A stretch of 64,000 nt of DNA from Owenia fusiformis. Lineage: Eukaryota > Annelida > Polychaeta > Sabellida > Oweniidae. Below the pieces are notes generated by a model, which worked only from the letters and a program-made list of their open reading frames with translations, did not search any database and was not told the DNA's origin. This document shows, piece after piece, positions 440 to 50,494 of this stretch. The stretch spans positions 23,482,822 to 23,546,821 of the forward strand of contig CAIIXF020000008.1 of NCBI GenBank assembly GCA_903813345.2, given 5' to 3'. The position numbers and the translations under genes are program-made. How positions within the stretch are numbered: position 1 is the stretch's first letter; the number at the start of each line of letters is the position of its first letter.

Positions 440-3240
440 GCCAATAATTGCACCTTGTCCTTTATCCAGAAAGCCAAAAATTTAGTCAATTCTAGATTTT
501 CATACTAAGAACCACCCCAGAAAATTTGAAATTGATCCGTCACACAGTTAACCAGAAAACATGTAAACAAGACTTTACAGACAAGATTTCAGGATGGAAA
601 ATACAAAATGGCTGCCTTGACATTTACCCAGAATGTCAAAAAACTAATCTGTTTGTAGATTTTCATACTAAGAATCATCCCTGAAAATATGAAAATGATC
701 TACCAAACGGTTCACCTGAAAACGGTAAGACAAGATTTTAGGACAGAAAATCCAAAATGGCTGCCTTAACATTTACGCAGAATGCAAAAAAACTAATCAA
801 ATGTAGATTTTCATACTAAGAATCGTCCCTGAAAATTTGAAATTGATCTACCAAACATTTCACCTAAAAACGCGTAGATAAGACTTTATTACAGGCAAGA
901 TTTTAAGACGGAAAATCCAAAATGGCTGCCTCGACATTTATCCAGAATGCCAAAAAACTAATCAGATCTAGATTTTCATTCTAAGAATCATCCCTGAAAA
1001 TTTGAAATTGATCTACAGAACGGTTCACCTGGAAATGTGTAGACAAGACAAGATTTTAGGACGGAAAATCCAAAATGGCTGCCTTGACATTTACCCAGAA
1101 TGCTAAAAAACTAATCAGTTCTAGATTTTCATACTAAGAACCATCCTGAAAATTTGAAATTGATCTACCAAACAGTTCACCTGAAAATGCGTAGACAAGA
1201 CTTTACAGAAAAGATTTTAGGACGGAAAATCCAAAATGGCTGCCTTGACCTTTATCCAGAATGCTAAAAAACTAATCAGTTCTAGATTTTCATACTAAGA
1301 ATCATCCCTGAAAATTTGAAATTGATCTACCAAACAGTTCACCTGAAAACGCGTAGACAAGACCTTACAGACAAGATTTAAGGACGGAAAATTCAAAATG
1401 GCTGTCTTGACATTTCCCCAGAATGCCAAAAAACTAATCAGATCTAGATTGTCATACTAAGAATCATCCCTGAAAATTTGAAAGTGATCCACCGAACGGT
1501 TCACCTGAAAACGCACAGATAAGACTTCACAGAAGATTTTAGGACCAAAACATCCAAAATGGCCGACAATAAAAAAGTCCTTATGAGTTTTTGCTGATTT
1601 CTTTTTACAAAATTATCACAGTGTTAACAATAACATAGGCTTTTACAACAAAGTACATCTGAAATTATTTAAAAAGCTACTAAATAGTTAAAGTATGAAA
1701 ACTCAAAAACACCATTCAATATGATACAAAGTATTATCGCGCTCTACTTTTCTTAAGACATTCAAAATGGTTGACATGACTGAGCTTACAGGTCCAAAAC
1801 CTAATCAGATCTAGAATGAAGTGAGCTGAACAAGATGTTAACGTTTTACAAGAACACAAATGTGTACAAAATGTCCCCACCTATGGGTGATCCCGTCAAA
1901 TGGTTATCCTAAAAATGAGTAGACAAGACTTTACCGACACAATTTGAGGACGGAAAATCAAAAATGGCCACCTTAAAATTTACCCAGAATGCCAAAAAAT
2001 AGTCAGTTCTAGATTTTCATACTAAGAAACATTCATACTGAAAATTTGAAATTGATCTACCAAACGGTTCACCTGGAAAATACGTAGACAAGACTTTACA
2101 AACAAGATTTTAGGACAGAAAATCCAAAATGGCTGCCCTGACATTTACCCAGAATGCCCAAAAACTAATCAGATCTAGATTTTCATACTAAAAATCATCC
2201 CTGAAAATTTGAAATTGATCTACCAAACGGTTCAGCTAAAAACGCGTAGACAAGACTTTAAGACGGAAAGATTTTAAGACGGAAAATCCAAAATGGCTGC
2301 CTTGACATTTATCCAGAATGCATAAAAACTAATCAGATCTAGATTTTCATACTAAGAATCATCCCTGAAAATTTGAAATTGATCTACGGAACAGTTCACT
2401 TGGAAATGCGTAGACAAGACTTTACAGACGAGATTTTAGGATAGAAAATCCAAAATGGCTGCCTTGACATTTACCCAGAATGCCCAAAAACTAATCAGAT
2501 CTAGATTTTCATACTCAGAATCATCCCTGAAAATTTGAAATTGATCTACCAAATGGTTCACCTAAAAACGCGTAGACAAGACTTAACGGGCAAGATTTTA
2601 AGACAGAAAATCCAAAATGGCTGCCTTGACATTTATCCAGAAAGCCAAAAAACTAATCAGATCTAGATTTTCATACTGAGAATCATCCCTGAAAATTTCA
2701 AATTGATCTACCAAACGGTTCACCTAAAAATGCGTAGACAAGACTTTAAGGGGAAGATTTTAAGACGGAAAATCAAAAATGGCTGCCTTGACATTTACCC
2801 AGAATGCCCAAAAACTAATCAGATCTAAATTTTCATACTAAGAATCATCCCTGAAAATTTGAAATTGATCTACCAAACGGTTCACCTGTAAACGCATAGA
2901 CAAGACTTTACAGACACGCTTTTAGGACGGAAAATCCAAAATGGCCGACAATAAAAAAGTGATTATGAATTTTTGCTGATTTCTTTTTACAAAATTATCA
3001 CATATAACTACTGTTAACAATAACATAGGCTTTTACAACAAAGTTCACCTGAAATTATTTATAAAGCTACTAAATAGTTAAAGTATGAAAACTGAAAAAC
3101 ACCATTCAATATGATACAAAGTATTATCGTGCGCTAACTTTTCTTAAAACATTCAAAATGGCTGACATGACTGAGCTAACAGGTCCAAAACCTAATCAGA
3201 TCTAGAATGAAGTGAGCTGAACAAGATGTTAAAGTTTTAA
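440..3240 (+). repeat. Tandem array of ~162-bp core units (pearl/HINE-like), in two blocks
   Basis: The motif AAAATGG(C)TGCC recurs at about 605, 754, 919, 1072, 1233, 1395 and 1556, then 1961, 2126, 2290, 2452, 2614, 2776 and 2938. The period is therefore about 150-165 bp, settling at 162 bp in the second block. Each unit carries 'cagaatgcc', 'aaactaatcag', 'ttttcatactaagaatcatcc', 'gaaatttgaaattgatc' and 'gtagacaagactttacag'. Both blocks end in the same ~290-bp tail (1556-1850 and 2938-3235), so there is a higher-order duplication of about 1.38 kb. Pearl elements of bivalves have tandem cores of about 160 bp next to ACGG-type microsatellites; the resemblance is structural and no database match was possible. 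Confidence 0.8.
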
Positions 3241-3525
3241 AAGCAACTGTGAAGCTGTTTTTCTTAAAGCTTGCAGACAAGGATTTTAGCATATGACTTC
3301 AAAATGGCCGACAGGAAGTAGGTATCGAGATAATTTTTTTTCATCCACATCTGTATGCACTCATAAGTTCTCCCTGAAAATTTGAAGGTGATATCTGTAG
3401 CGGTTTTGGAGAAAACTGCCGGACGTACGGACGGACAGACAGGCAGACAGACAGACAGACATACGGACAGACAGACGGACGCGCCTAGGCTGACAATATG
3501 GCCCCACACTATGTGGTGGGGACAT
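1871..3525 (+). mobile_element. Pearl/HINE-like non-autonomous element with short inverted termini
   Basis: The 5' end carries ATGTCCCCACC (1871-1881) and the 3' end carries its exact complement GGTGGGGACAT (3515-3525). Between them are seven ~162-bp core units, a single-copy tail, then an ACGG/ACAG microsatellite (about 3418-3480) and a terminal hairpin (CCCCAC...GTGGGG, about 3502-3522). Order core-microsatellite-hairpin is that of pearl/DINE-1/HINE elements, which are non-autonomous relatives of Helentrons. A second 3' end of the same type follows at once (to 3794). Class assignment is inference from layout. Confidence 0.6.
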
Positions 3526-4064: not shown

Positions 4065-5209
4065 GTGTTGTTTTCCATCCGGGCATTGTAAGACGATTTG
4101 AAAAACATGACAAATCAATCTTACTCTATTTCCAAAAGTTTGTATGTTGGTACGTGAATTGTTTTGATTATGATTTAAATCTGTAAATAGCTATCGTTAC
4201 TTTAGCAGAGAGGTTACATGTGTTAATTTACATGATGCAACGTGTAAGATTTTGATTATTAATCATAATTTAAAGTTATCCCAATTTTCGAAGAAAAGTC
4301 CAGTGAAGTGTAAATTGGTACGTCTTACCATGATGATAGAGGAAGAAAAGAGCCTAAAAATGCTTTTTATTTGAAGCTTCTAGCTCAATTTTGAAGGAAG
4401 TTACAAACATTTTTGTAAATTCAAAACAAATCTTACACGTTTTCTAATGATCTAATTATGTTATATATTCATATTTTTATCACCCCATCGGTGGGATATA
4501 GTCGTCATACTGGTCGTGGTCGTGGTCGTGATCGTGATTGTGGTCGTGATCATGATCGTCCCGCTTTTTGTCATCGCCGTTTAAGGAAAACTGCTCATCA
4601 GATCTTCTCCAAATTCGCAGAGATGATAGAGCATATGAAGTACTAGAGCTGATTTACTTTTGGGTGGCCATCTTGTTTTCTGGTGGCCATTTTGAAGGTT
4701 TTTCGAAAAATCTTGTCATCGCCATTTCAGGAAACTGCTCATTGGATTTCCTTCAAATTTACACAAATGATAGAGGATATCAAGTACTAGAGCTGATTAA
4801 CTTTTGGGCGGCCATCTTGTTTTCTGGCAGCCATTTTGAAGATTTTTCGAAAAATCTTGTCATCGCCATTTCAGAAAATCCGCTCATCGGATTTCCTTCA
4901 AATTTACACACATGATAGAGGATATCAAGTACTAGAGCTGATTAACTTTTCGGCAGCCATCTTGTTTTCTGGTGGCCATTTTGAAGGTTTTTTGAAAAAT
5001 CTTGTTTCTTGTTCTTGAAATTTGTAAACATAATAGGAGAACAGTTATTCTGGTTCATAGTGTCTGCCTACTTGATGGTGTGATCTCATTCACGTCCTGT
5101 GCCTTGTTCATTTTTTTGGGTACCCGGTTTTTTCGACCGGGTACCGGGCACCAAGTTTGAACCCAGCATGGAGGATACTGGTACCCGTTTTTTTTACAAA
5201 CCCTGCCTG
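4065..5209. mobile_element. E2-type element, truncated on the left and interrupted by a pearl-like element
   Basis: Segments 4075-4470 and 5105-5209 match E2 (defined at 49305-50075): 'cattgtaagacgatttg', 'gcaacgtgtaagattttgatt', 'gaggaagaaaagagcc', 'aaatcttacacgttttct', then 'gggtacccggttttttcgac' and the end 'acaaaccct' at about 5209. The two parts are split by 4475-5105, a pearl-like element. The E2 left end is lost. Confidence 0.6.
4475..5105 (-). mobile_element. Pearl-like element with (TCGTGG)n and ~128-bp core, nested in E2
   Basis: On the plus strand it starts with the terminal hairpin CCCCATCGGTGGG (about 4482), then a GGTCGT/GATCGT hexamer microsatellite (about 4508-4560), then about three ~128-bp core units ('gatagaggatatcaagtac', 'gagctgattaacttttgggc', 'ggccatcttgttttctgg', 'ttcgaaaaatcttgtcatcgcc'). 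Read on the minus strand, the order core-microsatellite-hairpin is the same as in the other pearl-like copies, with different sequences in each part. Confidence 0.6.
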
Positions 5210-10750: not shown

Positions 10751-13700
10751 CTGAAATATGAATACAGGTGTATATGAATCAACCAAAAAACAAATCTCAA
10801 ACCTAAAGTCAGATTTGATTTTCTGGGAACTTGAAGATGATGTTGAAAAAGATTTGGTCAAATTGAAGCAAGTTAAAAAAATACTTTTTGTTCTTTTTTT
10901 ACCTTCAAAGAAGGTCAAGGTCAAATCTTAAATATAAAGCCAGATTTGAACTTCTGAAAACTTTGGTCTTTTTTACTTTTTTGACCTTGAGAAGATTGTT
11001 GAAGGTCAAAGCTCATATCTAATGTCTGATTTGAACTTCCGAGATCATGTAAACGATTTTGAAAATATTTGGGCAATTTGAAGCAAGTTCAATAATACTT
11101 TTTGACCTTTTTAATCTTCAAAGAAGGTCGTTGAAGGTCAAATCTTAAATATAAAGCCAGATTTGAACTTCTGAAAACTTGTACATGAATCTGAAACAAA
11201 CAGTTTGGTCTTTTTTACTTTTTTGACCTTGACAAGGTTGTTGAAGGTCAAATCTCGAATCTAAAGTCAGATTTAAACTTCTGAGAACTTGAAGATAATT
11301 TTGAAAAAATTGTCATTTTGAAGCAAGTTGAAACAAGGACACACAAGTGTACAACATGTCCCCACCAATGGGAAATACTATAATATATAAATATTTCAAC
11401 CTGAATGCCTCACACTAATCAGTTGAAGAGAAAACATAGTTCCTCTGGAAACGCATAGAGAAGACTTTACAGACAAGATTTTAGGACAGAAAATGCAAAA
11501 CAGCTGCCTTAACGAGGCATATAGCCTTTTTATTTTTTCGTGAAGCCACTCAGTAAAATTACGATTTCTCTGCAACTTGATGTCCAATCAACATTATTCA
11601 AGTATCTATATGTTCCTGACACGTTTGGGCGTCCGGGAATAACAACGTCTACCCAAAGTTTGTACGGGAAATTAATGTAATTCATGACTGAAATCGGGAA
11701 GACAAAATTTGAGATTCACAAACAAACATTGAGTAGAAGTTGTCATTACCGGATGGCAAACGTGTCAGGAACACATACATTTGTAGATACTCGAATGATG
11801 TTGATTGGACATCAGGTTGCAGAGAAATCATAATTTTACTCAGTGGCTTCACAAAAATTAAGCAGCATTTTAGGCCACCTTAACATTTACTCATATTGCC
11901 CAAAAACTAATCAGATCCAGAATCTCACACTAAGAATCATACCTGAAAATTTGAAATTGATCCGTGAAACAATTTGATTTGACATTGGCAAGACTTTATA
12001 AACAAGATTTTAGGATGGAAAATCCAAAATGGCCACCTTAAAATTGACCCAAAATGCAAAAATCTAATCAGTTCAAGGTTCAGGAAAAACCAAAATGGCC
12101 ATTTACATTTACCCAGAATGCCCAAAACTAATCAGTTCTTGAATTCCATACAAAGAATCATCCCTGAATATACTGTCAAACGGTTTGCCTGGAAATGTAT
12201 AGATAAGACTTCACTGTAAAGATTTAGAACTGAAAATCCAAAATGGCCACCTTAACATTTACCCACAATGCCCAAAACTTTACAAGTTCCAGATTCTTAT
12301 GTTAAGAATTTCTTTGTTTAAAATTTGAAATTGATCAATAAAACGATTTGCCTGAAAACACAGAGACAAGGCTTTATAGATTTAGGATGGAAAATCCAAA
12401 ATGGCCACCTTATTATTTACCCAGAATGCCAAAAAACTAATCAGTTTGAGATTTTTATACTAAGAATCATCCCTGAAATTTGAAATTAATCTATCAAATG
12501 GTTCGACTGGAAACATGTAGACAAGACTTTACAGACAAGATTCTAGAACGGAAAATTCAAAATGGCCACCTTAACATTCTCCTAGAATGCCCAAATACTG
12601 ACAAGTTCTGGATTACAATACAAATAATCATCCCTGAAAGTTTGGAGTGGATCTGTCAATCGCTTCGCCTAAAAATACATAGACTAGACTTTACAGACAA
12701 GATTTAAGACAGAAAATACAAAAATGGCCGACCATAAAAAAGCAAAAATAATTTTTTGCTGTTTTTGTAAGAAAATTATTGCATGCAACTATTGTTAACA
12801 GTGAGATGGGCTTTTACAGGACACCCGAAACTATTTGTGAAGCTACAAAATAGTTGAATTATGAAACTCAAAAACAGCTTGTAATAATAACTAGAAAAAC
12901 AGCAACTACACGGAGTAGCAAATCCCACCGAACAAAACATATTTTGCATATTAATGGCCATTTTGAAAATCTCTTCTTCAGGGTAACTTCTTTGTCCCTA
13001 AGCATCAGCATATAAAATTTAAACCAAATCCTTTAACTAGTATTTGAGTTATCAAAGATTATGTTTTTTTACGAAAAATGGCCACCATTTTGGTATTAAG
13101 CAGCCATTCTAAAAATTTCTTTTTCAGCGAACCAAATCTTTCAACTAGTATTTGAGTTATCAAAGATTACAGTGACCATTTTGAAATTCAGCCGCCATCT
13201 TGAAAATTCTTTCATGAACAAACCTACTTTACCCTAGGCATCATCATATAAAATTTAAACCAAAACCGTTCACTGGTATTTGAGTTATCAAAGATTACAT
13301 TTTTTACCAAAAATGACCGCCATTTTGATATTTAGCAGCCATCTTGAAAAATTCTTCAGCATAGCTCCTTTGTCCCTAGGCATCAGCATATAAAATTTGA
13401 ACCAAATCAATTCACTATATTATATTTGAGTATAAAAGATTATGTTTTTTACGAAAAACAGCCGTCATTTTGATATTTAGCAGCCATTTTGAAAATCTCT
13501 TCTTCAGGGTAGTTCCTTTGTCTCTAGACATCAGCATATAAAATTTGAACCAAATCCGTCAACCAATATTTGAATTATCAAAGATTACGTTTTTTTATGA
13601 AAAATAGCACCATTTTGAAATTCAGCCGCCATCTTGAAAATTCTTTCTTGAACAAATCTACTTTGTTCCTAGGCATCATCATATTAAATTTGAATCAAAT

Positions 13701-19344: not shown

Positions 19345-20160
19345 TGCAAAATAATTGAATTAAGTACATTTCACAACCCATTGTACTGAAAAGCATTATA
19401 CCAGTGCGTATTGTACCGAGAGGCATACAGAATGCCATAATACCGAAGCACATCATCTTGATTCACAAGGTTTCAGTTGTTCCTATGTGACTTGTAACAT
19501 ATATTTCTGCTTGAACATTTAGAAACATTACAAGCACAAAGTAATTGATAGACAAATCAGCAAACACATATATATTTAGAGTTTCCTTGGAGTAATTAAT
19601 ATGAATAGTTAGTGATACATGGTATTCATTAATTACAATTGACAAGCAACTCATAAAAGCACCACATAAGTTTTAAAATCACTTCAGGTCTCTTCGTATA
19701 TACTATATGTTTGAAATAGGCTAGTATAGTTGTGAAATTAGTTATATTCACATGTGATGACAAAGTCAATCATGCTTCTACATGAAAGTCGAAACCCTGT
19801 TATAATCGTAATTCAACTAGCCCTTTGGGCTTTGTGGAATATGACTTATGAAAGATGCACAGGAGCTCATCGCTTTAATGATTTTTTAATGCACTCGTGA
19901 CAAACATGTATGTCTTACAGATCTAACATTTGTTTAGTCATTAAATAAGCCCAGAATTGCAAAATTGTTTATCTTTGCTTTTTTATCCTTCATCATTCTA
20001 CACTCAAATCATTTTTATTTGCTGGGGAATTCCAATGAGTCGTCTAAAGGGTGTCGCTATATTGCCATACTTAGATTGCATTACAACCTTGTCTTTATGG
20101 GTGTACTACTTTCCTCATTATCCACTTAGGAACCAGATAGTGTATCATCATCCACAAAAT
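19345..20160. promoter_or_regulatory. BCS1L upstream region; no further gene seen
   Basis: Lies 5' of the first recognised BCS1L exon. It should hold the non-coding first exon and promoter, but I could not identify a start site, CpG-rich stretch or core element. A small hairpin 'agccctttgggct' is at about 19818. Confidence 0.3.
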
Positions 20161-21255
20161 CGACCATGATGATAGAGGAAGAAAAGAGCCTTAAAATGCT
20201 TTTTATTTGAAACAAATCTTACAAATTTTCTAATGATCTAATTATGTTGTATATTCGTATTTTTCGTTTTTGTGGGTATCCGTTTTTTTCGACAGGGTAC
20301 CAAGTTTGAACCAGAACAACGGCAACGCCAAAGCGTAGCGAATCCCATCGAACAGAAATGGCTGGCATTTTTACAAACGAATAGCAAATATCGTAAAACA
20401 ACACACCAGAAAGGCCACCATTTTCAAAATGGTGGCCATTTTTCAAAATGGCCGACTACTCCCCAAAGTTTTATTAGACAATGTGCCATACTGTATTCAC
20501 ATATCAAATATGAACAAAATTGCTCTACTACTTTTCGAGTTATAGTAAAATACGTTAAAATGGCGGCCATTTTTCAAAATGACCGCCTTCTACCAAAAGT
20601 GTCATAGGACAGTGTGCCATGCTTATAGTATTCACATACCAAATATGAACAAAATCGCTCCACTACTTTTCGAGTTATAGTAAAATACGTTAAAATGGCG
20701 GCCATTTTTCAATTTTTTTCAAAATGGCCACCTTCTACCAAAAGTGTCTTTAGACAGTGTACAATGCTTATAGTATTCACATACCAAATATGAACAAAAT
20801 CGCTCCACTATTTTTTGAGTTATAGCAAAAATCATAAAATGACGAGTAAAGGCCGCCATTTTTCAAGATGGCTGCCATGTGCTTCTTTAATATCTACATT
20901 TGTAGCATTATTAATGTCCTTTATAATTTTTTTACATTTAAAATATATTGATATAACAGTTTTACATATTGCACCTAAATTACTGTAAAATCGGCACTAA
21001 AATGGCCGCCATTTTGAAATGAGCGGCCATTTTGAAAATCGGCTTTCGAGCAGAACTTCTACCCCCATAAGGTATATGTGTACAAAATATGAACAAAATC
21101 GGGCCAACGGTATTTGAGTTATTGCCCGGACGGACGGACGGACGGACGGACGGACGGAGGCGTTCCCTATATCCCTCCGAACTTCGTTCGATGGGATAAC
21201 AAGCATGGAGGATTTACTACCCAGTACCCAGTACCCATTTTTTTCTACAAACCCA
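20160..21255. mobile_element. E2-type element split by a pearl-like element
   Basis: E2 segments 'gatgatagaggaagaaaag' to 'taccaagtttgaacc' (20165-20310) and 'aagcatggaggatttac' to 'ttctacaaaccca' (21202-21255) are contiguous in intact E2 copies. They are separated here by 20311-21201. Confidence 0.7.
20311..21201 (+). mobile_element. Pearl-like element, ends defined by the split E2
   Basis: The interrupted host repeat gives precise edges. Left: AGAACAACGGCAACGCC. Right: CGTTCGATGGGATAAC. Inside are about four ~127-bp core units ('caaatatgaacaaaatcgct', 'actacttttcgagttatag', 'ggcggccatttttcaaaatg'), then a CGGA/GGAC microsatellite (21126-21165) and the tail 'ccctccgaacttcgttcgat'. No obvious TSD, as expected for Helitron-type insertion. 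Confidence 0.75.
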
Positions 21256-23913: not shown

Positions 23914-26755
23914 TAGTCAAAACAGTTATGTTTGTGACAACTCTGAATTTAAAAAATATGCAATCAAATGACCATATTGAATCAGTTTATGAATAGAAAC
24001 ATTTATATTTATCCTAACTTTTGTATATTTCAGATAGTAATGTATAATGTGCAGCAAAGCTGTGGCCTTTTGTAATTTAGGGAGTTTCAGCCATGTTAAT
24101 TTTTCCAAAAATAACATGGCAGAGAAGTATCAATATATTAGAGGACACAGATATGATAGCTACTACTTTTTGCAAGGCCTGACTTCGTCGCTAACATGCT
24201 AAATATAAGAGTTAGCTGACGTTTGGGAGTCTGACTTACCTTCTAAAGGTTAGAACCCGAATCTTAATGAAACCATATCACCTTTGTTGCGTCGATGATG
24301 ATGCATAAACATAGCATTTGATAGAAATTAGTATAAATGCTTTTCCGACTTTTTCATTTTTCATCAATGTTGACTTTCGGGAAGGCGTTGTAGTTATCAC
24401 GAAATAACGCATTGACCCTTGAACTTTACTTTGTTGACGTGTCAACCAAGCATGTCTGGTGTGAAAATTAAAAGAATATTAAGCAATGTTCTACATCCGC
24501 CAAGCTAAGTGAAGTAGCCAATATAAAATTACCAATTTCGAGTGAAGTACGCAACGAACGAAACTGCGTGATCTACAGTCCCACTATTTGTCTGAACGAA
24601 ATGCTACGTAGAAATATGAGCCGTCTGCTGTATTAGTCAATTAATAGAGTAAGACCTGTTGGTGATGCTTTATAATTTAGACCAAAACATTGAAGAACGT
24701 ACGAACCTGTAAATCGTGAAAACAACGAACAAATATTCGGTTTTCATATATGTTCGGTAATTTTTCGTATTGAAACTTCCGGAACTTACAAGGAAATCAT
24801 TCATTTTCTCGGTCCATGATTTACCTCTTGGATGTTGTGGCAAATGCTCCATGGTTGACGGAACAAAGGTGATATGGTTTCATTAAGATTCGGGTTCTAA
24901 CCTTTAGAAGGTAAGTCAGACTCCCAAACGTCAGCTAACTCTTATATTTAGCATGTTAGCGACGAAGTCAGGCCTTGCAAAAAGTAGTAAACTAGAAAAC
25001 AAACTAAAATATACAAAAGTTAGGATAAATATAAATGTTTCTGTTTTTACATAAACTGTTTCAATATGGTCATTTGATTGCTTATTTTTTTAATTCAAAG
25101 TAGTCACAAACCATAGGAGACAGGTTACCTGAAAAGGAAGATAGATATCATTATCTCTTATCTAAACAAGGACTGAAACTGAGGCAAGTCTACCCTGGCT
25201 GAAATCAGCTCTGAAATAACAATTACTGCATGTCAAGCCGTCATTCAATGCTGATTTTGTAGAAAACAGATCTGTCCATCCTTCTACATGTGAGTTTTTC
25301 CCATAAAGATGCTTGATTAAGTAGAAATTCATCAAATTATACCCCTAGAATATCAAAGTTCAACTGTACATCAATCGCGTGAGGAAAAAAAACAAATCCA
25401 TTTTTCACCTTCTGTTCACAAACCCTTCTTCTTCTTCTTGGAAAAGTTGTCCCTCATTTGACTAACAGCAAATGTGTATGTTTATGCAGCAATATATGTT
25501 AGTTTAGAAAATGATTAATTACAATCTTACCTGTACTTCACAGAAACATCCTAAGTATGAAAATATTTCACTAAAAATACATGCTTCCATTTTGTCACAT
25601 GTTCATAATAATTTACATATTGACCATGTGATGTTGACAGGGAGTGTAAACGCACCTAGCGTACAGGAAATATGTTATGATATTTATTAAGAAATTAGGT
25701 ATGGTAATCATTATTAATTAAGCATTAAGTATTAAGCCCCCAACCCACTTCTCAAAGTTCATGAAGTACCAAGGAAAGACCAAATATTAAATAAATTAGA
25801 AAAATTTGAATTTCCAAAAAAATCAAGTGGGCGATAATAGAGCCTCTGAAACATGGCAAAAGTGACATATTTTGTAATTTTCAATGCATACTCCCGATAA
25901 TTATCTATCATTGTGTGCTTTCCACACCATATCAAACTAATATTATCTAAAAATAATGTATGTAATAAGTTAATGAAGGAAAAATTTAATGTTTCAGAGA
26001 CTCTATTATCGCCCACTTGATTTTTTGGGAAATTCAAATTTTTCTAATTTATTTAATATTTGGTCTTTCCTTGGTACTTCATGAACTTTGTGAAGTGGGT
26101 TGGGGGCTTAATACTTAATGCTTAATTAATAATGATTACCATACCTAATTTCTTAATAAATATCATAACATATTTCCTGTACGCTAGGTGCGTTTACACT
26201 CCCTGTCAACATCACATGATCAATATTTAAATTATTATGAACATGTGACAAAATGGAAGCATGTATTTTTAGTGAAATATTTTCATACTTAGGATGTTTC
26301 TGTGAAGTACAGGTAAGATTGTAATTAATCATTTTCTAAACTAACATATATTGCTGCATAAACATACACATTTGCTGTTAGTCAAATGAGGGACAACTTT
26401 TCCAAGAAGAAGAAGAAGGGTTTGTGAACAGAAGGTGAAAAATGGATTTGTTTTTTTTCCTCACGCGATTGATGTACAGTTGAACTTCGATATTCTAGGG
26501 GTATAATTTGATGAATTTCTACTTAATCAAGCATCTTTATGGGAAAAACTCACATGTAGAAGGATGGACAGATCTGTTTTCTACAAAATCAGCATTGAAT
26601 GACGGCTTGACATGCAGTAATTGTTATTTCAGAGCTGATTTCAGCCAGGGTAGACTTGCCTCAGTTTCAGTCCTTGTTTAGATAAGAGATAATGATATCT
26701 ATCTTCCTTTTCAGGTAACCTGTCTCCTATGTCACAAACATTACTGTTTTGACTT
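23914..26755. mobile_element. Foldback element P, interrupted by element Q
   Basis: The ends are inverted: AGTCAAAACAGTTATGTTTG (23915) and CAAACATTACTGTTTTGACT (ending 26754), possibly flanked by TA. Subterminal arms pair 23930-24290 with 24860-25103, with a ~550-bp loop. Removing Q and one TSD copy restores the right end and leaves about 1.2 kb. The left arm has a ~130-bp insertion (about 24035-24170) absent from the right arm. Confidence 0.75.
25112..26731. mobile_element. Foldback element Q (1620 bp) with 8-bp TSD, nested in P
   Basis: Ends CATAGGAGACAGGTTACC and its complement are flanked by the perfect duplication TCACAAAC (25104-25111 and 26732-26739). Arms of about 740 bp (25112-25852 and 25992-26731) are nearly identical and enclose a 139-bp loop. 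No transposase. The high arm identity implies a recent origin or repair by gene conversion. Confidence 0.9.
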
Positions 26756-27008: not shown

Positions 27009-28348
27009 CGGAGTGGCTCCAGGACCGACAATTGTCGGTACTGGAGACTGTCCAGGGGTATTTGCTGGGGTACCGACAATTGTCGGCACTCTATCGTCAA
27101 CTAGTAGTGCCAGATAGAGAACCGACAATTGTCGGTACGCAAGTGGCTGCTACGTGTTTTTGCTAGAGAGCCGACAATTTCATAAATAAATCCACTACTT
27201 TTACTTTCTGAAATAACCTCATCACTGATACCATAGTGGTTAGCGAGAAGGACTCGAACACACTCGGTCCCGAGTTCGAATCCCGGCAAGACCTATTTTT
27301 TTTCTTTGGGGGGGGGGGGGCATAGTGCTTCTTTTGCAGTATGGAATCGTACAGGCATTAACTTGTAGTGAGCCATAATTTATTTCGACAAAAATTGATT
27401 CAACTTCCATCAAAATTGTCCTACAAGCTTCAATTAAAAAACATTTTAAAGCTCTTTTCTTGTTCTATCTAATGGGTCGATATATACAGTTAGAGGAGGG
27501 GATGCTTTCGACCCCGTCGCTCTCTACCCTTACTACGCCATGGCACAGGAGAAATATCTCATTTGGAATATATCACTGTTTACTTTGCGTTTGATAGCTC
27601 TCTCATGCGAGATGGAATAGTGGCCATTAACTAAGGGAGCCAAATGCAACTTCCATCAAAAATTGTGCTATTGTCAAAATTGTGGTATGAGTACCGTAAT
27701 CCAACACCAAATTCGAAAATTCATAACAATACTTTGCACATATGGCGTTCGTGACCAACTATGAAACACTTATCCCCCATAGTGTTATATATCAAAATGC
27801 ACCTGTCCATATAGGGGTTCGATTGACCTACATCAAATTATTTGGAGTCAGGTTACTTTTTGTGATATCAGCGTCCGTTTATTGTAACTCGCGTTTGCTA
27901 CCACTTCCTCAATTCTGATATGACGGGCAAACGCGTAGTAAACATGCTCACGTTCGGAACTATTTTGACCTACATCGCTATTTTCGTAATTCAAATGAAA
28001 GTTGAACTCCTCTTTATTTTGATACCAAATAGTGGCATACTAGGTACCCTAGAAGCCAACTATGGGTTATTTAGAACGATACCACGGGTTTTTAAATGGA
28101 CTATATAGGCGGATGGATATGGAACCTCTCCCCGGGTTTTGCACTTGTTCCCGAAATATCCGTATGATATCTGAAATATCCCCCCGCGCATTGCGCATGC
28201 GCCAGAAAATTCGAAATCAATATTTGTCGGTCCTCTAGCGTGTAAACACAGCATATCTCCCGTACCGACAATTTATTTGTCGGTCCTCTAGCGTGCCACC
28301 ACATCAGAGTCTAGAGTACCGACAATTGTCGGTACTCTAGCCTTTACG
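27009..28348. mobile_element. E1b: element with palindromic subterminal repeats, 9-bp TSD
   Basis: Flanked by AATTAATAA (27000-27008 and 28349-28357). The imperfect inverted ends are CGGAGTGGCTCCAGGACCGA and its partner ending CCTTTACG. Copies of the 16-bp palindrome ACCGACAATTGTCGGT lie at 27024, 27072 (one mismatch), 27121 and 28318, with decayed copies near 27170, 28223 and 28264. The interior 27690-28090 is homologous to the E1 interior (45415-45800). A 9-bp TSD points to the Mutator/MULE group. Confidence 0.75.
27222..27293 (+). other. tRNA-like sequence (not a functional tRNA)
   Basis: An A-box-like 'taccatagtgg', a B box 'gagttcgaatccc' and a downstream T run ('tattttttttc') are all present. 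The 7-bp acceptor stem cannot form and the D stem is poor, so I read it as a tRNA-derived relic or SINE head rather than a tRNA gene. Confidence 0.45.
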
Positions 28349-44929: not shown

Positions 44930-44935
44930 CATTTT

Positions 44936-46112
44936 CAGTACTGTCAACCCCCAAAGATTTTCTCGCGGGACAGATTTTTTAGACCCAGTTCCAAAAATTC
45001 GCGGGATTTTGCGGGACATCCACCTAAATTCGCGGGATTTCGCGGGACATTTAAGGGATTTGCGTGATTACGCTAAAAGGTCAAATTTTGATCAAATTCG
45101 CGGGATTTCGCGGGACCATTCGAGGGACAAACACGCTACTTGCGGGACAATTAACAGGGTAACCACCAAAGACTTCAGAGAGGGATAATTTTTCTAGACA
45201 AAGTGCCCTAAATTCGCGGGATTTTGCGGGACATCCACCTTTTGCGGGATGTCGCAGGACATTCAAGGGATTTTTAATGTAAAAGTACTCTTGAATCAAA
45301 CTTTCAGATACTGATTTATCAAATATAATGCACTTAACTTAAGTAAACGTCAACACAATTCCACACAATACGCATAGAACTATTATTAAACTATCAAAAA
45401 CCACGCTTTAGGTGTGAGTACCGTAATCCGACACGAAATTCAAAAATTCTTGTGAATACTTTGCACTTATGGCGTTCGTGACCAACTATGAAACATTTAC
45501 CCCCATAGTGTTATATATCAAAATGTACCTATTCGTATAAGGGTTCGATTATTCTACATCAAATTATGGGGAGTCAGGTTTCTTTTCGAGATATCAGTGT
45601 CCATTTATTGGAACTCGCGTTTGCTAACATTTGTTTAGTTCTGAGATGAAGGCCGTGACACGCGTAGTAAAAAGGCCAACGTTGGAACTAATCGTGACAT
45701 ACATCCCTATTTCCGTAATTAAAATGAAATTTGCACTCTTCCTCTTTATTTTGATACCAAACGGCATGCTAGAAGCCAACTATGGTGTTATTTGGATCAA
45801 AATCATAGTTTTATAAGTGTACTATATGCTCCTTCCAAAAGCAGTCTTTGATGATCTGATGCACTGGGAGTTCAGCAGCAGTTTTCAAATTAGGTAAACT
45901 TGACTCCTCAAAAGTGCAAAAAGCTTAGCTTCTTATATCACAATATAATCACAATTATTTAGCCTCGGGGATTATTACAATTTTGAAAATTCGCGGAGGT
46001 CAAAGCCGTCATTTGCGGGAATTTGCGAGACATTGCGGGACACGCGAATAAGCCAAATTTTGGTCAAATTCGCGGGATAATCCCGCCATTCGCGGGACAC
46101 TTGACAGCTCTG
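44936..46112 (+). mobile_element. E1 copy 1 (1177 bp, 6-bp TSD, no E2 inside)
   Basis: Ends CAGTACTGTCAAC (left) and CTTGACAGCTCTG (right), flanked by CATTTT (44930-44935, 46113-46118). Subterminal 'cgcgggatttcgcgggac' repeats cluster at both ends (44960-45250 and 45990-46100). The interior 45415-45800 has 'gagtaccgtaatccgac' and 'actcgcgtttgctaac'. The E2 site is empty here (TTCGAGAT, 45595-45602). No transposase. Confidence 0.92.
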
Positions 46113-46613
46113 CATTTTACATGTCATAATTTCTTGGTTTCATTCGTTTAGCCGATCAAAACATTGTAAAACAATAAATCGTCTGTTACGTATACAGAGC
46201 TGTCAAGTGTCCCGCGAATGGCGGGATTATCCCGCGAATTCGATCAAAATTAGGCTAATTCGCGTGTCCCGCAATGTCCCGCGAAGTCCCGCAAATGTGG
46301 CTTTCGACCTCCGCGAATTTCCAAAATTGTTGCAATCCCCTAGCCTATATGGTGATTATCTTATCTTATATAAGAAGCTAAGTTTTTGCACTTTTGAGGA
46401 GTAAAGTTTACCTAATTTAAAGTACCTAGCATGCTGTTGTTTGGTATCAAAATAAAGAGGAAGGGTTCAACTTTCATTTTAATTACGACAATAGGGATGT
46501 AGGTCACAAATAGTTCCAACGTTGGCCTTTTTACTATCCGTGTGGCCTTCATCTCAGAACTGAGCAAATGTTAGCAAACGCGAGTTACAATAAATGGACG
46601 CTGATATCTAGAA

Positions 46614-47548
46614 AGGGTTTGTAGAAAAAACCGGGTACCGGGTAGTAAATCCTCCATGCTGGGTTCAAACTTGGTATCCGGTCAAAAAATGGGTACCCAA
46701 AAAACGAAAAATACGAATATACGAGTGTAACATAATTAGATTATCAGAAAACGTGTAAGATTTGTTTTGAATTTAAAAAAATGTATGTAACATCCTTCAA
46801 AATTGAGCTAGAAGCTTCAAATAAAAATCATATTTTAAGGCTCTTTTCTTCCTCTATCATCATGACCATATTTTCGTTGGTTAGGGGGGGGGGGTGCGAT
46901 CGCACCCTCTCCTGGCTACGCCTATGACATTGCAAGACATAACAATTTAGTGGACAATTCAGTGGACATTTTGTCGACAATTGGGATAACTTAAATTATG
47001 ATTAATAATCAAAATCCTACACGTTGCATCATGTAAATTAACACACGTCACCTTTTTGAAGGAAGTTACATACATTTTTGTAAATTCAAAACAAATCTTA
47101 CACGTTTTCTTATCATCTAAATATGTTGTTATTATTATTATTATTATATCTTGGTTACCGCCATATTTGGCGAGCAATACCTCATTGGTATATTCCGTAT
47201 TTTACACTCGAAGATAGAGCCAGAAACCTCTCCTTGGAGGAGCCCTGTTTTCTTTTATGTGCACAGGTACACAGACATACAGGTACACACCACAGCCTTT
47301 TATACGAGTCGTGAACCACTCAGTCAAACACCCAGAATTACATAACGCACAAACAAACTTGTCTGAACCGGGAATCGAACCCGGGGCCAAGCGATATTGG
47401 TAACCTTGACTCTCTCTGCCACTGAGCCATAGCGGGTGTATATTCATATATTTCGTTTTTTGGGTACCCGGTTTTTTCGACTGGGTACCAAGTTTGAACC
47501 CAGCATGGAGGATTTACTACCCGGTACCCGTTTTTTTCTACAAACCCT
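46614..47548. mobile_element. E2 in E1 copy 2 (8-bp TSD)
   Basis: Ends AGGGTTTGTAGAAAAA and complement, flanked by ATCTAGAA (46606-46613, 47549-47556). Contains the SINE at 47122-47440. Confidence 0.9.
47122..47440 (-). mobile_element. tRNA-derived SINE
   Basis: On the minus strand it begins with a tRNA-like head: a perfect A box TGGCTCAGTGG (about 47425) and a T arm CCGGGTTCGATTCCCGG with intact B box (about 47365-47383). The anticodon arm is abnormal, so it is not a working tRNA. A ~200-bp body follows with 'aaacagggctcctccaagg', then an (ATA)n tail (47122-47146 on plus as 'ttattattatt'). Intact polymerase III promoter boxes suggest it could be transcribed. Confidence 0.8.
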
Positions 47549-48339
47549 ATCTAGAAAAGTAACCTCATTCCCTATAATTTGATGTAGATTCTATATCATG
47601 GGCTTTCAATTGAAAGCCCATGCCTACTGTATATGAATAGGTACATTTTGATATATAACATTATGGCCTTTCAATTGAAAGTCCATGCCTACAGTATATG
47701 AAAAGGTACATTTTGATATATAACATTATGGGGGTAAACGTTTCCTATATAGTTGGTCACGACGCCAGAAGTGCAAACTGGTATTGTTCCAAATTTTTGA
47801 ATTTCGTGTTAGATTACGATACTCACACCTGAAGCATGGTTTTTGTTTTTGATAAATTACAATAAAGTTTAATAATATTTCTATGCGTATTTTGTGAAAT
47901 TATGTTGACGTTTATTTAAGTTACAATGTAACGGTGCATTATATTTGATTAATCAGTTTCTGAAAGTTTGATTTAAGTACTTTTACACGCTTTTACATTA
48001 GTCCCAATCACGCAAATCCCTTGAATGTCCCGGGACATCCTGCAAATTTAGGTGGATGTCCCGCGGAATCCCGCAAATTTAGGGCACTTTTTCTAGAAAA
48101 TCTGTCCCTCTATGAAGTTTTTGCTGGTAAACATGTTAACTGTCCCGCAATTAGGGTGTTTGTCCCTCGAATGGTCACGCGAAATCCCGCGAATTTGATA
48201 AAAAAATGGCCTATAAGCGCAATCACGCAAATCCTGTGAATTTAGTAGATGTCCCGCAAAATCCCGCGAATTTTGGGCACTGGGTCTAAAAAATCTGTCC
48301 CGCGAGAAAATCTTTGGGGGTTGACAGTACTGCGTATAA

Positions 48340-48552
48340 TCAATTTTGTTCAGTTTTGATTTGAAGTTGCGTTCATCTGAATCCATGTTTCAAAACAAAA
48401 ATCATATTTTCTTCACTTCAAAATACTTCAGTGAGATGAATGCTCGGAATTGTCGTTTGCAATAACTTATTGTCGTATTCGTTCTTTTATCTACTTGATA
48501 GAAGCATTGAGTCGTACATTTGATGCCAGGTCACCTTCTCGCGTACCTCTTG
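48340..48552. other. Short unique spacer between E1 copies
   Basis: No feature recognised. Confidence 0.4.
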
Positions 48553-48559
48553 GGGAGCC

Positions 48560-50488
48560 CAGTACTGTCAACCCCTAAAGATTTTCTCGCGGGACAGATT
48601 TTTTAGACCAAGTGCCCAAAATTTGCGGGATTTTGCGGGACATCTACTAAATTCGCGTGATTTCGCGGGACATTTAAGGGATTTGCGTGATTGTGCTAAT
48701 AGGCCAATTTTTTTTATCAAATTCGCGGGATTTCGCGGGACCATTCGAGGGACAAACACCCTAATTGCGGGATAGTTAACAGGGGTACCACCAAAAACTT
48801 CATAGAGGGACAGATTTTTTAGACAAAGTGCCCTAAATTTGCGGGATTTCGCGGGACATCCACCTAAATTTGCAGGATGTCCCGGGACATTCAAGGGATT
48901 TGCGTGATTGGGACTAATGTTAAAGCGTGTAAAAGTACTTAAATCAAACTTTCAGAAACTGATTAATCAAATATAATGCACCGTTACATTGTAACTTAAA
49001 TAAACGTCAACACAATTTCACAAAATACGCATAGGAATATTATTATACTTCATTGTAATTTATCAAAAACAAAAACCATGCTTCAGGTGTGAGTACCGTA
49101 ATCTAACACGAAATTCAAAAATTCGGAACAATACTTTGCACTTCTGGCGTCGTGACCAACTATGAAACGCTTACCCCCATAATGTTATATATTAAAATGT
49201 ACCTATTCATATACTGTAGGCATGGGCTTTCAATTGAAAGCCCATGATATAGGGGTTCGATTAATCTACATCAAATTATAGGAAATGAGGTTACTTTTCT
49301 AGATAGGGTTTGTAGAAAAAACCGGGTACTGGGTAGTAAATCCTCCATGCTGGGTTCAAACTTGGTACCCGGTCGAAAAAAACGGGTACCCAAAAAACGA
49401 AATATCCGAATATACAACATAATTAGATCATTAGAAAACGTGTAAGATTTGTTTTGAATTATAAAAATGTATGTTACTTCCTTCAAAATTGAGCTAGAAG
49501 TTTCAAATAAAAATTATTTTAAGGCTCTTTTCTCCCTCTATCATCATGGTCATATTTCCATTGGTAATGAAGGGGGGTGGGTGCGATCGCACCCACTCCT
49601 GGCTACGCCAATGACATTGTAAGACGATTTGAATAACAAGACAAATCAATCTTACTCTATTTTCCATACTTCGTATGTTGGTACATGAATTGTTTTGATT
49701 ATGATTTAAACCTGTAAAAAGCTATCGTTGCTTTAGCAGAGAGGTGACGTGTGTTAATTTAAATGATGCAACGTGTAAGATTTTGATTATTAATCATAAT
49801 TTAAGTTATCCCAATTTTCGACAAAATGTCGATAGAGGAAGAAAAGAGCCTTAAAATATGCTTTTTATTTGAAGCTTTTAGCTCAATTTTGAAGGATGTT
49901 ACATACATTTTTGTAAATTCAAAACAAATCTTACACGTTTTCTCATAATCTATTATGATATATATTCGTATTTTTCGTTTTTTGGGTTCCCGTTTTTTGA
50001 CCGGGTACCGGGTACCAAGTTTGAACCCAGCATGGAGGATTTACTACCCGGTACCCGTGTTTTTCTACAAACCCTTTCTAGATATCAGCGTCCATTTATT
50101 GTAACTCGCGTTTGCTAATATTTGCTCAGTTCTGAGATGAAGGCCACACGGGTAGTAAAAAGGCCAACGTTGGAACTATTTGTGACCTACATCCCTATTG
50201 TCGAAATTAAAATGAAAGTTGAACCTTTCCCCTTTATTTTGATACCAAACAACAGCATGCTAGGTACTTAAAATTAGGTAAACTTTACTCCTCAAAAGTG
50301 CAAAAACTTAGCTTCTTATAAAAGATAAGATAATCACAATATAGGGGATTGCAACAATTTCGGAAATTCGCGGAGGTCAAAGCCACATTTGCGGGACTTC
50401 GCGGGACATTGCGGGACACGCGAATTAGCCTAATTTTGATCAAATTCGCGGGATAATCCCGCCATTCGCGGGACACTTGACAGCTCTG
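48560..50488 (+). mobile_element. E1 copy 3 (1929 bp, 6-bp TSD, carries E2)
   Basis: Ends CAGTACTGTCAAC and CTTGACAGCTCTG, flanked by GGAGCC (48554-48559, 50489-50494). Same subterminal repeats and interior as copy 1, with E2 at 49305-50075. Confidence 0.92.
49305..50075. mobile_element. E2 in E1 copy 3 (771 bp, 8-bp TSD)
   Basis: Ends AGGGTTTGTAGAAAAA and complement, flanked by TTCTAGAT (49297-49304, 50076-50083), the reverse complement of the TSD in copy 2. Arms of about 250 bp ('cctccatgctgggttcaaac', 'cttacacgttttct') enclose a loop. 8-bp TSDs fit hAT or Merlin-like elements; superfamily not settled. Confidence 0.92.
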
Positions 50489-50494
50489 GGAGCC

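Follow-up and report, generated by a model that had tools for sequence, protein, structure and literature searches.

In the window, i.e. the whole stretch of 64,000 nucleotides of Owenia fusiformis DNA analysed here, three copies were verified of an element, E1, that is a family of several hundred copies in this genome and that is probably a non-autonomous, cut-and-paste family of hAT type, with target-site duplications (TSDs) mainly of 6 bp, corresponding to the published group hAT6. Membership of hAT6 is an assignment by inference, because the autonomous partner was not found. The ends, the copy number and the TSD tally support the proposal of an earlier note that these copies form a non-autonomous family of DNA transposons, with TSDs predominantly of 6 bp, and E1, set beside hAT6, IS3EU and Dada by their published descriptions, is most likely a new family of a known transposon group.

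All three copies proposed from the window sequence have the ends and the 6-bp TSDs (CATTTT, CGTATA and GGAGCC) first given for them (Table 1). The ends had been described as 13 bp long; the terminal inverted repeat (TIR) is in fact 12 bp (CAGTACTGTCAA / CAGAGCTGTCAA), is identical at 10 of 12 positions and lies flush with the TSDs. Paired-arm comparison within the window places the start and stop of homology among the copies exactly at these ends. The subterminal repeats are indeed dense, CGCGGGA occurring 24 times inside the three copies and not once in the remaining window, and the GCGGGA arrays of E1 are almost wholly unidirectional.

Table 1. E1 copies, their TSDs and internal features, in positions of the window.
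Feature	Position	Strand	Description
E1 copy 1	44936-46112	+	1177 bp, core subfamily; 3.2% from consensus of 24 short copies
TSD CATTTT, copy 1	left 44930-44935, right 46113-46118		
Left subterminal array, copy 1	44936-45273	+	11 GCGGGA motifs, single orientation
Right subterminal array, copy 1	46010-46112	+	4 GCGGGA in same orientation, 1 inverted (TCCCGC at 46081)
E1 copy 2	46195-48332	-	2138 bp, inverted; contains nested N1 and SINE-like insert
TSD CGTATA, copy 2	low side 46189-46194, high side 48333-48338		
N1 in copy 2	46614-47548	-	Homologous position, 8-bp TSD identical to that in copy 3
SINE-like insert in N1 of copy 2	47134-47436	-	Stretch without match in E1
E1 copy 3	48560-50488	+	1929 bp; contains nested N1
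TSD GGAGCC, copy 3	left 48554-48559, right 50489-50494		
N1 in copy 3	49305-50075	+	TIR AGGGTTTGTAG..., 8-bp TSD TTCTAGAT at 49297-49304 / 50076-50083

The boundaries of N1 were set by eye on the sequence together with the paired arms. Within the SINE-like insert lies what we take to be a tRNA B-box-like stretch (complement at about 47370-47384); ARAGORN called no tRNA genes in the window. Copies 2 and 3 would represent a subfamily into which the unrelated N1 inserted before amplification, the composite then moving as one unit. Subfamily E1B provides a further case of differing interiors: its representative L048 matches the core consensus over 469 left bases at 96.0% and 179 right bases at 98.9%, and the interiors between these conserved ends are different. 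Conserved ends around differing interiors are the usual form of transposase-dependent elements. It is extremely improbable that the three copies go back to a single insertion followed by local (segmental) duplication, as their position within 5.6 kb of one another and the 96-98% identity of copies 2 and 3 at their ends might suggest; against this, the TSD and the flanks differ from copy to copy, one copy is inverted, copy 1 is without N1 and diverges at its left end by about 11-12% from copies 2 and 3, and homology between the copies was not seen past the TSDs.

Exact occurrences of the left E1 16-mer and of the right 19-mer each number 446 in the genome assembly, against 1 and 0, respectively, for the reversed controls. 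The copies examined come from about one fifth of the genome (C1 to early C3) and from the window, and were mostly picked by exact ends, a selection under which old copies are under-represented. Among 50 junction pairs (with L064, one of three tandem duplicates, entered once) the flush TSD was 6 bp in 38, 5 bp in three, 7 bp in three and absent in six. A match of 5-7 bp between a copy's own flanks was thus present in 44 of 50 pairings, whereas in 2256 non-self pairings among 48 copies the left flank of one and the right flank of another shared 5 or 6 bp four times; the 38 six-bp TSDs comprise 37 different sequences. Of the 44 flush TSDs, then, a strong majority of 38 bears out the claimed 6 bp, but the other six measure 5 or 7 bp, so that to call the length fixed is too strong. 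Eleven of 24 short copies differ by 2.5-3.9% from a consensus into which some members of other subfamilies entered (these being up to 25% apart and probably misaligned inside), and by this distance part of the E1 family is fairly young.

A second family, E2, has 1183 exact left ends in the assembly. Its TSDs are 6 bp in seven of eight copies and 7 bp in one, and its ends agree with those of E1 at 10-11 of 12 positions; judged by these similar ends and TSDs, E2 is a sister family of E1.

A longer copy encoding a transposase between the same ends was sought in about one fifth of the genome and in the window, and was not found. No transposase was recognised in the E1 copies examined, either among ORFs inspected by eye or among 10 peptides compared with Pfam, which gave one C2H2 zinc finger and otherwise nothing above cut-off. 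The three longest listed left/right pairs (8.9, 10.9 and 11.0 kb) turned out to be either a chimaera or E1 interrupted by inserts, among them a LINE identified by eye from reverse-transcriptase motifs, and their longest ORF, the LINE aside, is of 170 aa. Ten pairs of 3.1-3.8 kb and eight of 2.4-2.9 kb contain inserts or alternative interiors in which no transposase was recognised, and none was recognised among ORFs viewed by eye in the 1.3 kb inward of 20 unpaired ends. CAGTACTGTCAA followed by a base other than C occurs 56 times, and the reversed control 97 times. Of the 56, at least three are variants of E1, being paired with one of its right ends, and the rest look like chance. The long E2 pairs yielded a LINE-like insert and other repeats, and no hAT element.

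The hAT dimerisation domain (PF05699) has at least 138 matches in the genome (150 of 183 candidates scored), and sources of hAT transposase therefore exist there. In the 3' flanks of 40 of these matches no exact CAGnnCTGTCAA was present; with one or two mismatches there were 17, spread over 16 of the 40 loci and attributed to chance in the absence of a control. E1 homology at the first 20 loci was confined to pieces of N1, in L036. Two further matches were examined and set aside, one (C1:33560478) lying outside a complete E1 copy (L018) and the other (C1:29008249) about 40 bp from a complete 255-bp E2 copy (L092) that has its own TSD and was taken as a separate insertion; inspection by eye of the part of C1-C3 spanned by the end lists gave no other match less than 5 kb from an E1 end. 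Profile searches of the genome gave 30 matches for zf-BED and four for DUF4371, of which one, lying 4.4-4.8 kb away from an E2 end, was examined in sequence together with a second match, its position being put down to chance; PF04937 and PF14372 had no genome matches, and their controls gave none either. Element F of the window (27009-28348), considered as a bridge from the E1 interior to a hAT gene, was withdrawn: it has a 9-bp TSD, has only a 411-bp inner module in common with E1, and two different hAT genes probably lie near it by chance. Extra bases of palindrome-like form next to the TSDs of L021 and L027 were likewise rejected as hairpin footprints, two cases being easily due to chance.

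Two coding hAT families were delimited in the same genome through comparison of near-identical copies and through their symmetrical TIRs. Both make 8-bp TSDs, each read in two copies: GTACAAGC and CCTTTCAC for hAT-B (C5/C9; end TAGAGCTCTGAT), and ATTACTTT and GTTATAAT for hAT-D (C4/C12/C3; end TAGGGC(C/T)GTGCC). In both coding capacity and TSD length they differ from E1. At 8 of 12 positions the E1 right end matches TAGAGCTCTGAT of hAT-B, and the E2 right end the hAT-D right end TAGGGCTGTGCC; this likeness is a short one and was picked, without a control, as the best of 16 pairings. At the left ends of E1 and E2, agreement with hAT is lower, 5-7 of 12 positions. G at position 5 is usual in hAT ends, and the CAGTA and CAGGC ends are without it. 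Nothing in stretches L031 and L033 matched the E1 copies of the window.

These comparisons bear on whether a non-hAT transposase, from an as yet undescribed group with CAGnnCTGTCAA ends and 6-bp TSDs, moves E1 and E2. Such a mover is favoured by the failure to link any hAT transposase gene to the E1 or E2 ends, by the 8-bp TSDs of the hAT elements delimited alongside them, and by the end type and 6-bp TSD that the two families have in common; nevertheless we regard it as unlikely, since hAT6, as described in the relevant passages of PMC12730594, already accounts for hAT elements with 6-bp TSDs, the right ends of both families show similarity to ends of hAT elements from this genome, and the long copies were checked in only about one fifth of it. 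It is also rather improbable that E1 and E2 form an undescribed group, with CAGnnCTGTCAA ends, a mainly 6-bp TSD and, in E1, the nearly unidirectional GCGGGA subterminal arrays, whose mover would be either a very divergent hAT or a non-hAT transposase. Under the preferred assignment to hAT6, a hAT transposase encoded elsewhere in the genome would bind the subterminal motifs of E1, pair its ends, cut at CAG/CTG and join the cut ends to the target across a stagger of 6 bp, at times of 5 or 7.

The E1 insertions form a large, clean-ended collection, some of them fairly young, in which partly hAT-like ends accompany mainly 6-bp and sometimes 5- or 7-bp TSDs, a stagger that contrasts with the 8 bp of both hAT families delimited in the same genome. 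Should an autonomous partner be found, it and E1 together would make it possible to test directly how stagger length is determined in hAT transposases. For annotation, TSD length alone is insufficient for assigning elements with 6-bp TSDs to IS3EU or Dada. The rule of Repbase itself, according to PMC4455052, places elements in one superfamily when their TSDs are equally long and their first 11 bp align with no more than one mismatch.

Polinton/Maverick elements have long TIRs and are large and coding; E1 has a 12-bp TIR, 47 of the 50 copies examined measure 0.8-3.8 kb, and no coding copy was recognised among them. Polintons also make 6-bp TSDs, according to the portion of PMC10045372 that deals with them, and the earlier note's remark that few superfamilies do so (IS3EU, some Dada) omitted both Polinton and hAT6. 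That E1 might be a non-autonomous IS3EU or Dada element is very unlikely. IS3EU (GingerRoot) shares the 6-bp TSD, but the fungal families characterised in the corresponding section of PMC12730594 end in TAYGG..CCRTA with TIRs of more than 30 bp, against the 12-bp CAGTACTGTCAA/CAGAGCTGTCAA of E1. Dada, whose TSDs of 6-7 bp are similar, is without TIRs and inserts into snRNA or tRNA genes in the account that PMC3706591 gives of it, whereas E1 has TIRs and targets as varied as its TSD sequences; no Rfam match reached the gathering score in the window. Both candidates thus fit poorly in ends, TIRs or targets. hAT6 is closer: as far as the pertinent text of PMC12730594 goes, it is the hAT group defined by 6-bp TSDs (its ref. 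32, Kapitonov and Jurka 2007, Repbase Reports 7:1192-1204), beside hAT5 with 5-bp TSDs, and is placed in one lineage with Blackjack and other animal hATs, the host of E1 likewise being an animal. Set beside this published description, E1 has in common with hAT6 the 6-bp TSD and short TIRs, its ends being partly hAT-like (CAG...CTG) and its 12-bp TIR falling within the span of 10-25 bp stated for hAT elements in the passage concerned of PMC3942097.

The three E1 copies clustered in the window (G000:C8:23482822-23546821, in a host assembly, G000, of 498 Mb and 525 contigs) are each flanked by a perfect 6-bp target-site duplication (TSD; see table), an observation that the earlier note had read correctly from the sequence. 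They begin with CAGTACTGTCAACCCC... and end with ...GGGACACTTGACAGCTCTG, giving a terminal inverted repeat (TIR) of 12 bp that is identical at 10 positions. Identity between the ends of copies 2 and 3 is 96-98%, and copies 1 and 3 diverge by approximately 11%.

Coordinates of E1 copies and other repeats, within the window unless a contig is named
Feature	Position	Strand	TSD
E1 copy 1	44936-46112	+	CATTTT (perfect, 6 bp)
E1 copy 2	46195-48332	-	CGTATA (perfect, 6 bp)
E1 copy 3	48560-50488	+	GGAGCC (perfect, 6 bp)
N1 piece outside E1	4084-4478		
N1 piece outside E1	5112-5204		
N1 piece outside E1	20156-20312		
Element F	27009-28348		AATTAATAA (9 bp, read by eye)
Long palindrome	25112-26731		
Palindrome, left arm	25112-25854		
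Palindrome, right arm	25989-26731		
Tandem-repeat array	441-3247		
Stretch related to array	11878-12876		
Head-to-tail E1 copies (L050)	G000:C1:33067398-33071886		none
Nested E1 pair (L056 21-2657)	G000:C1:33541490-33544126		TGCTCA (later insertion); TTTGCT (outer, flanking pair)
Pile-up of E1 and E2 ends	G000:C1 ~33.0-33.8 Mb		

Genome-wide, the left 16-mer and the right 19-mer of E1 each have 446 exact matches, against 1 and 0, respectively, for the controls. Fifty junction pairs, drawn from the window and the initial portions of contigs C1-C3, were read; two of these pairs were each assembled from two separate stretches. A flush 6-bp TSD is present in 38, a 5-bp one in three (L009, L014, L017) and a 7-bp one in three (L010, L023, L005/6), with none in the remaining six; among the 48 one-piece copies, 2256 non-self pairings of flanks gave four matches of 5 or 6 bp. 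The earlier proposal that the TSD is fixed at 6 bp therefore stands as a strong majority, but not as an absolute. Summed over both strands, the 38 six-bp TSDs never have C at position 2 or G at position 5, and the target preference is weakly palindromic, a pattern that a pair of transposase subunits acting symmetrically would be predicted to leave.

Copies lacking a flush TSD take several forms. Those in L021 and L027 have a 7-nt direct repeat 5 and 4 nt, respectively, off the left end, whilst the L003/4 junction pair is probably a chimaera. L050 holds two copies head to tail, 1 bp apart, and in L056 a younger E1 precisely interrupts the left junction of an older copy, generating a tandem pair; we attribute the missing flush TSD of the second copy to this nesting. 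The L056 pair itself seems to lie within an element of the sister family E2. E1 and E2 ends are densely piled up in one region of C1 that is perhaps repeat-rich or centromere-near.

Core E1 copies are approximately 1.18 kb long. Eleven of 24 short copies lie 2.5-3.9% from their consensus, indicating that some E1 copies are fairly young; the other 13 lie at 4.5-25.3%, where the largest distances belong to members of other subfamilies with poorly aligning interiors. The consensus carries 11 GCGGGA motifs in its first 317 bp and five in its last 100 bp, all sharing one direction, plus a single inverted motif close to the right end; GCGGGA and CGCGGGA occur 44 and 24 times in the three window copies, compared with 5 and 0 times in the remaining window. 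The interior of subfamily E1B (L048, L055, L063 and the right part of L004) is unrelated to core E1. The match between L048 and the core consensus is confined to 469 bp at the left end (96.0%) and 179 bp at the right end (98.9%), which indicates that transposition conserves the element termini. Copies 2 and 3 belong to a subfamily with an element, N1, nested at the identical place in both. In copy 3 N1 is 771 bp long, with TIR AGGGTTTGTAG and 8-bp TSD TTCTAGAT; copy 2 additionally has a SINE-like insert inside N1 and a 65-bp tandem duplication. The N1 pieces outside E1 identify it as an independent repeat family.

A 411-bp inner module, 84% alike, is common to the E1 interior and element F, and so occurs in two unrelated elements. 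F, itself a transposon, has ends CGGAGTGG...CCTTTACG and contains four CCGACAATTGTCGG palindromes with at most one mismatch. The window also holds an inverted repeat, its 743-nt arms 99.2% alike around a 134-base gap, which forms a near-perfect, probably recent, long palindrome. Numerous self-matches that overlap one another mark a tandem-repeat array, to which a stretch 9 kb away is related.

E2, with ends CAGGCCTGTCAACTGTC... and ...AGTTGACAGCCCTG, is nested in two E1 copies (L010, L056), and has 1183 exact left ends in the genome; seven of eight copies read have a 6-bp TSD and one a 7-bp TSD. E1 within E1 and E2 within E1 each retain their own TSD. Since the ends of the two families agree at 10-11 of 12 positions, a single transposase type probably serves both.

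In the parts of the literature drawn on here, 6-bp TSDs are described for IS3EU, Dada (6-7 bp), Polinton and the hAT group hAT6 (PMC12730594, PMC10045372, PMC3706591). The earlier note favoured IS3EU or Dada. However, the IS3EU families described there have ends TAYGG..CCRTA and TIRs >30 bp (PMC12730594), unlike E1 in both respects, and Dada is described as lacking TIRs and targeting small-RNA genes (PMC3706591), which E1 fits no better; a hAT6-type assignment is to be preferred. This reading draws on the TSD length that defines hAT6 and prevails in E1, on the abundance of exons for the hAT dimerisation domain PF05699 (at least 138 matches, among those listed), and on the likeness of the E1 and E2 right ends to those of two hAT families delimited from near-identical copies in this genome, hAT-B (TAGAGCTCTGAT) and hAT-D (TAGGGC(C/T)GTGCC), at 8 of 12 positions as the best of 16 pairings, taken without a control. 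In contrast, the left ends fit more poorly (5-7 of 12), hAT-B and hAT-D have 8-bp TSDs, and no transposase gene joined to E1 or E2 ends was found in the 3' flanks of 40 among the 138 listed PF05699 matches or in several other searches; membership in hAT6 is accordingly the best explanation of the sequence evidence rather than a demonstrated fact. Near-identical copies with 8-bp TSDs and long open frames make recent activity of these two hAT families (L031/L095, L096 and L033, L097-L100) probable.

Under a hAT6-type mechanism, a hAT-type transposase supplied in trans would recognise the TIR and GCGGGA array, excise the element and insert it with a target stagger usually of 6, and rarely of 5 or 7, bases. 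Compared with the published groups by description rather than by sequence, E1 is probably a new family of an already known kind of transposon.
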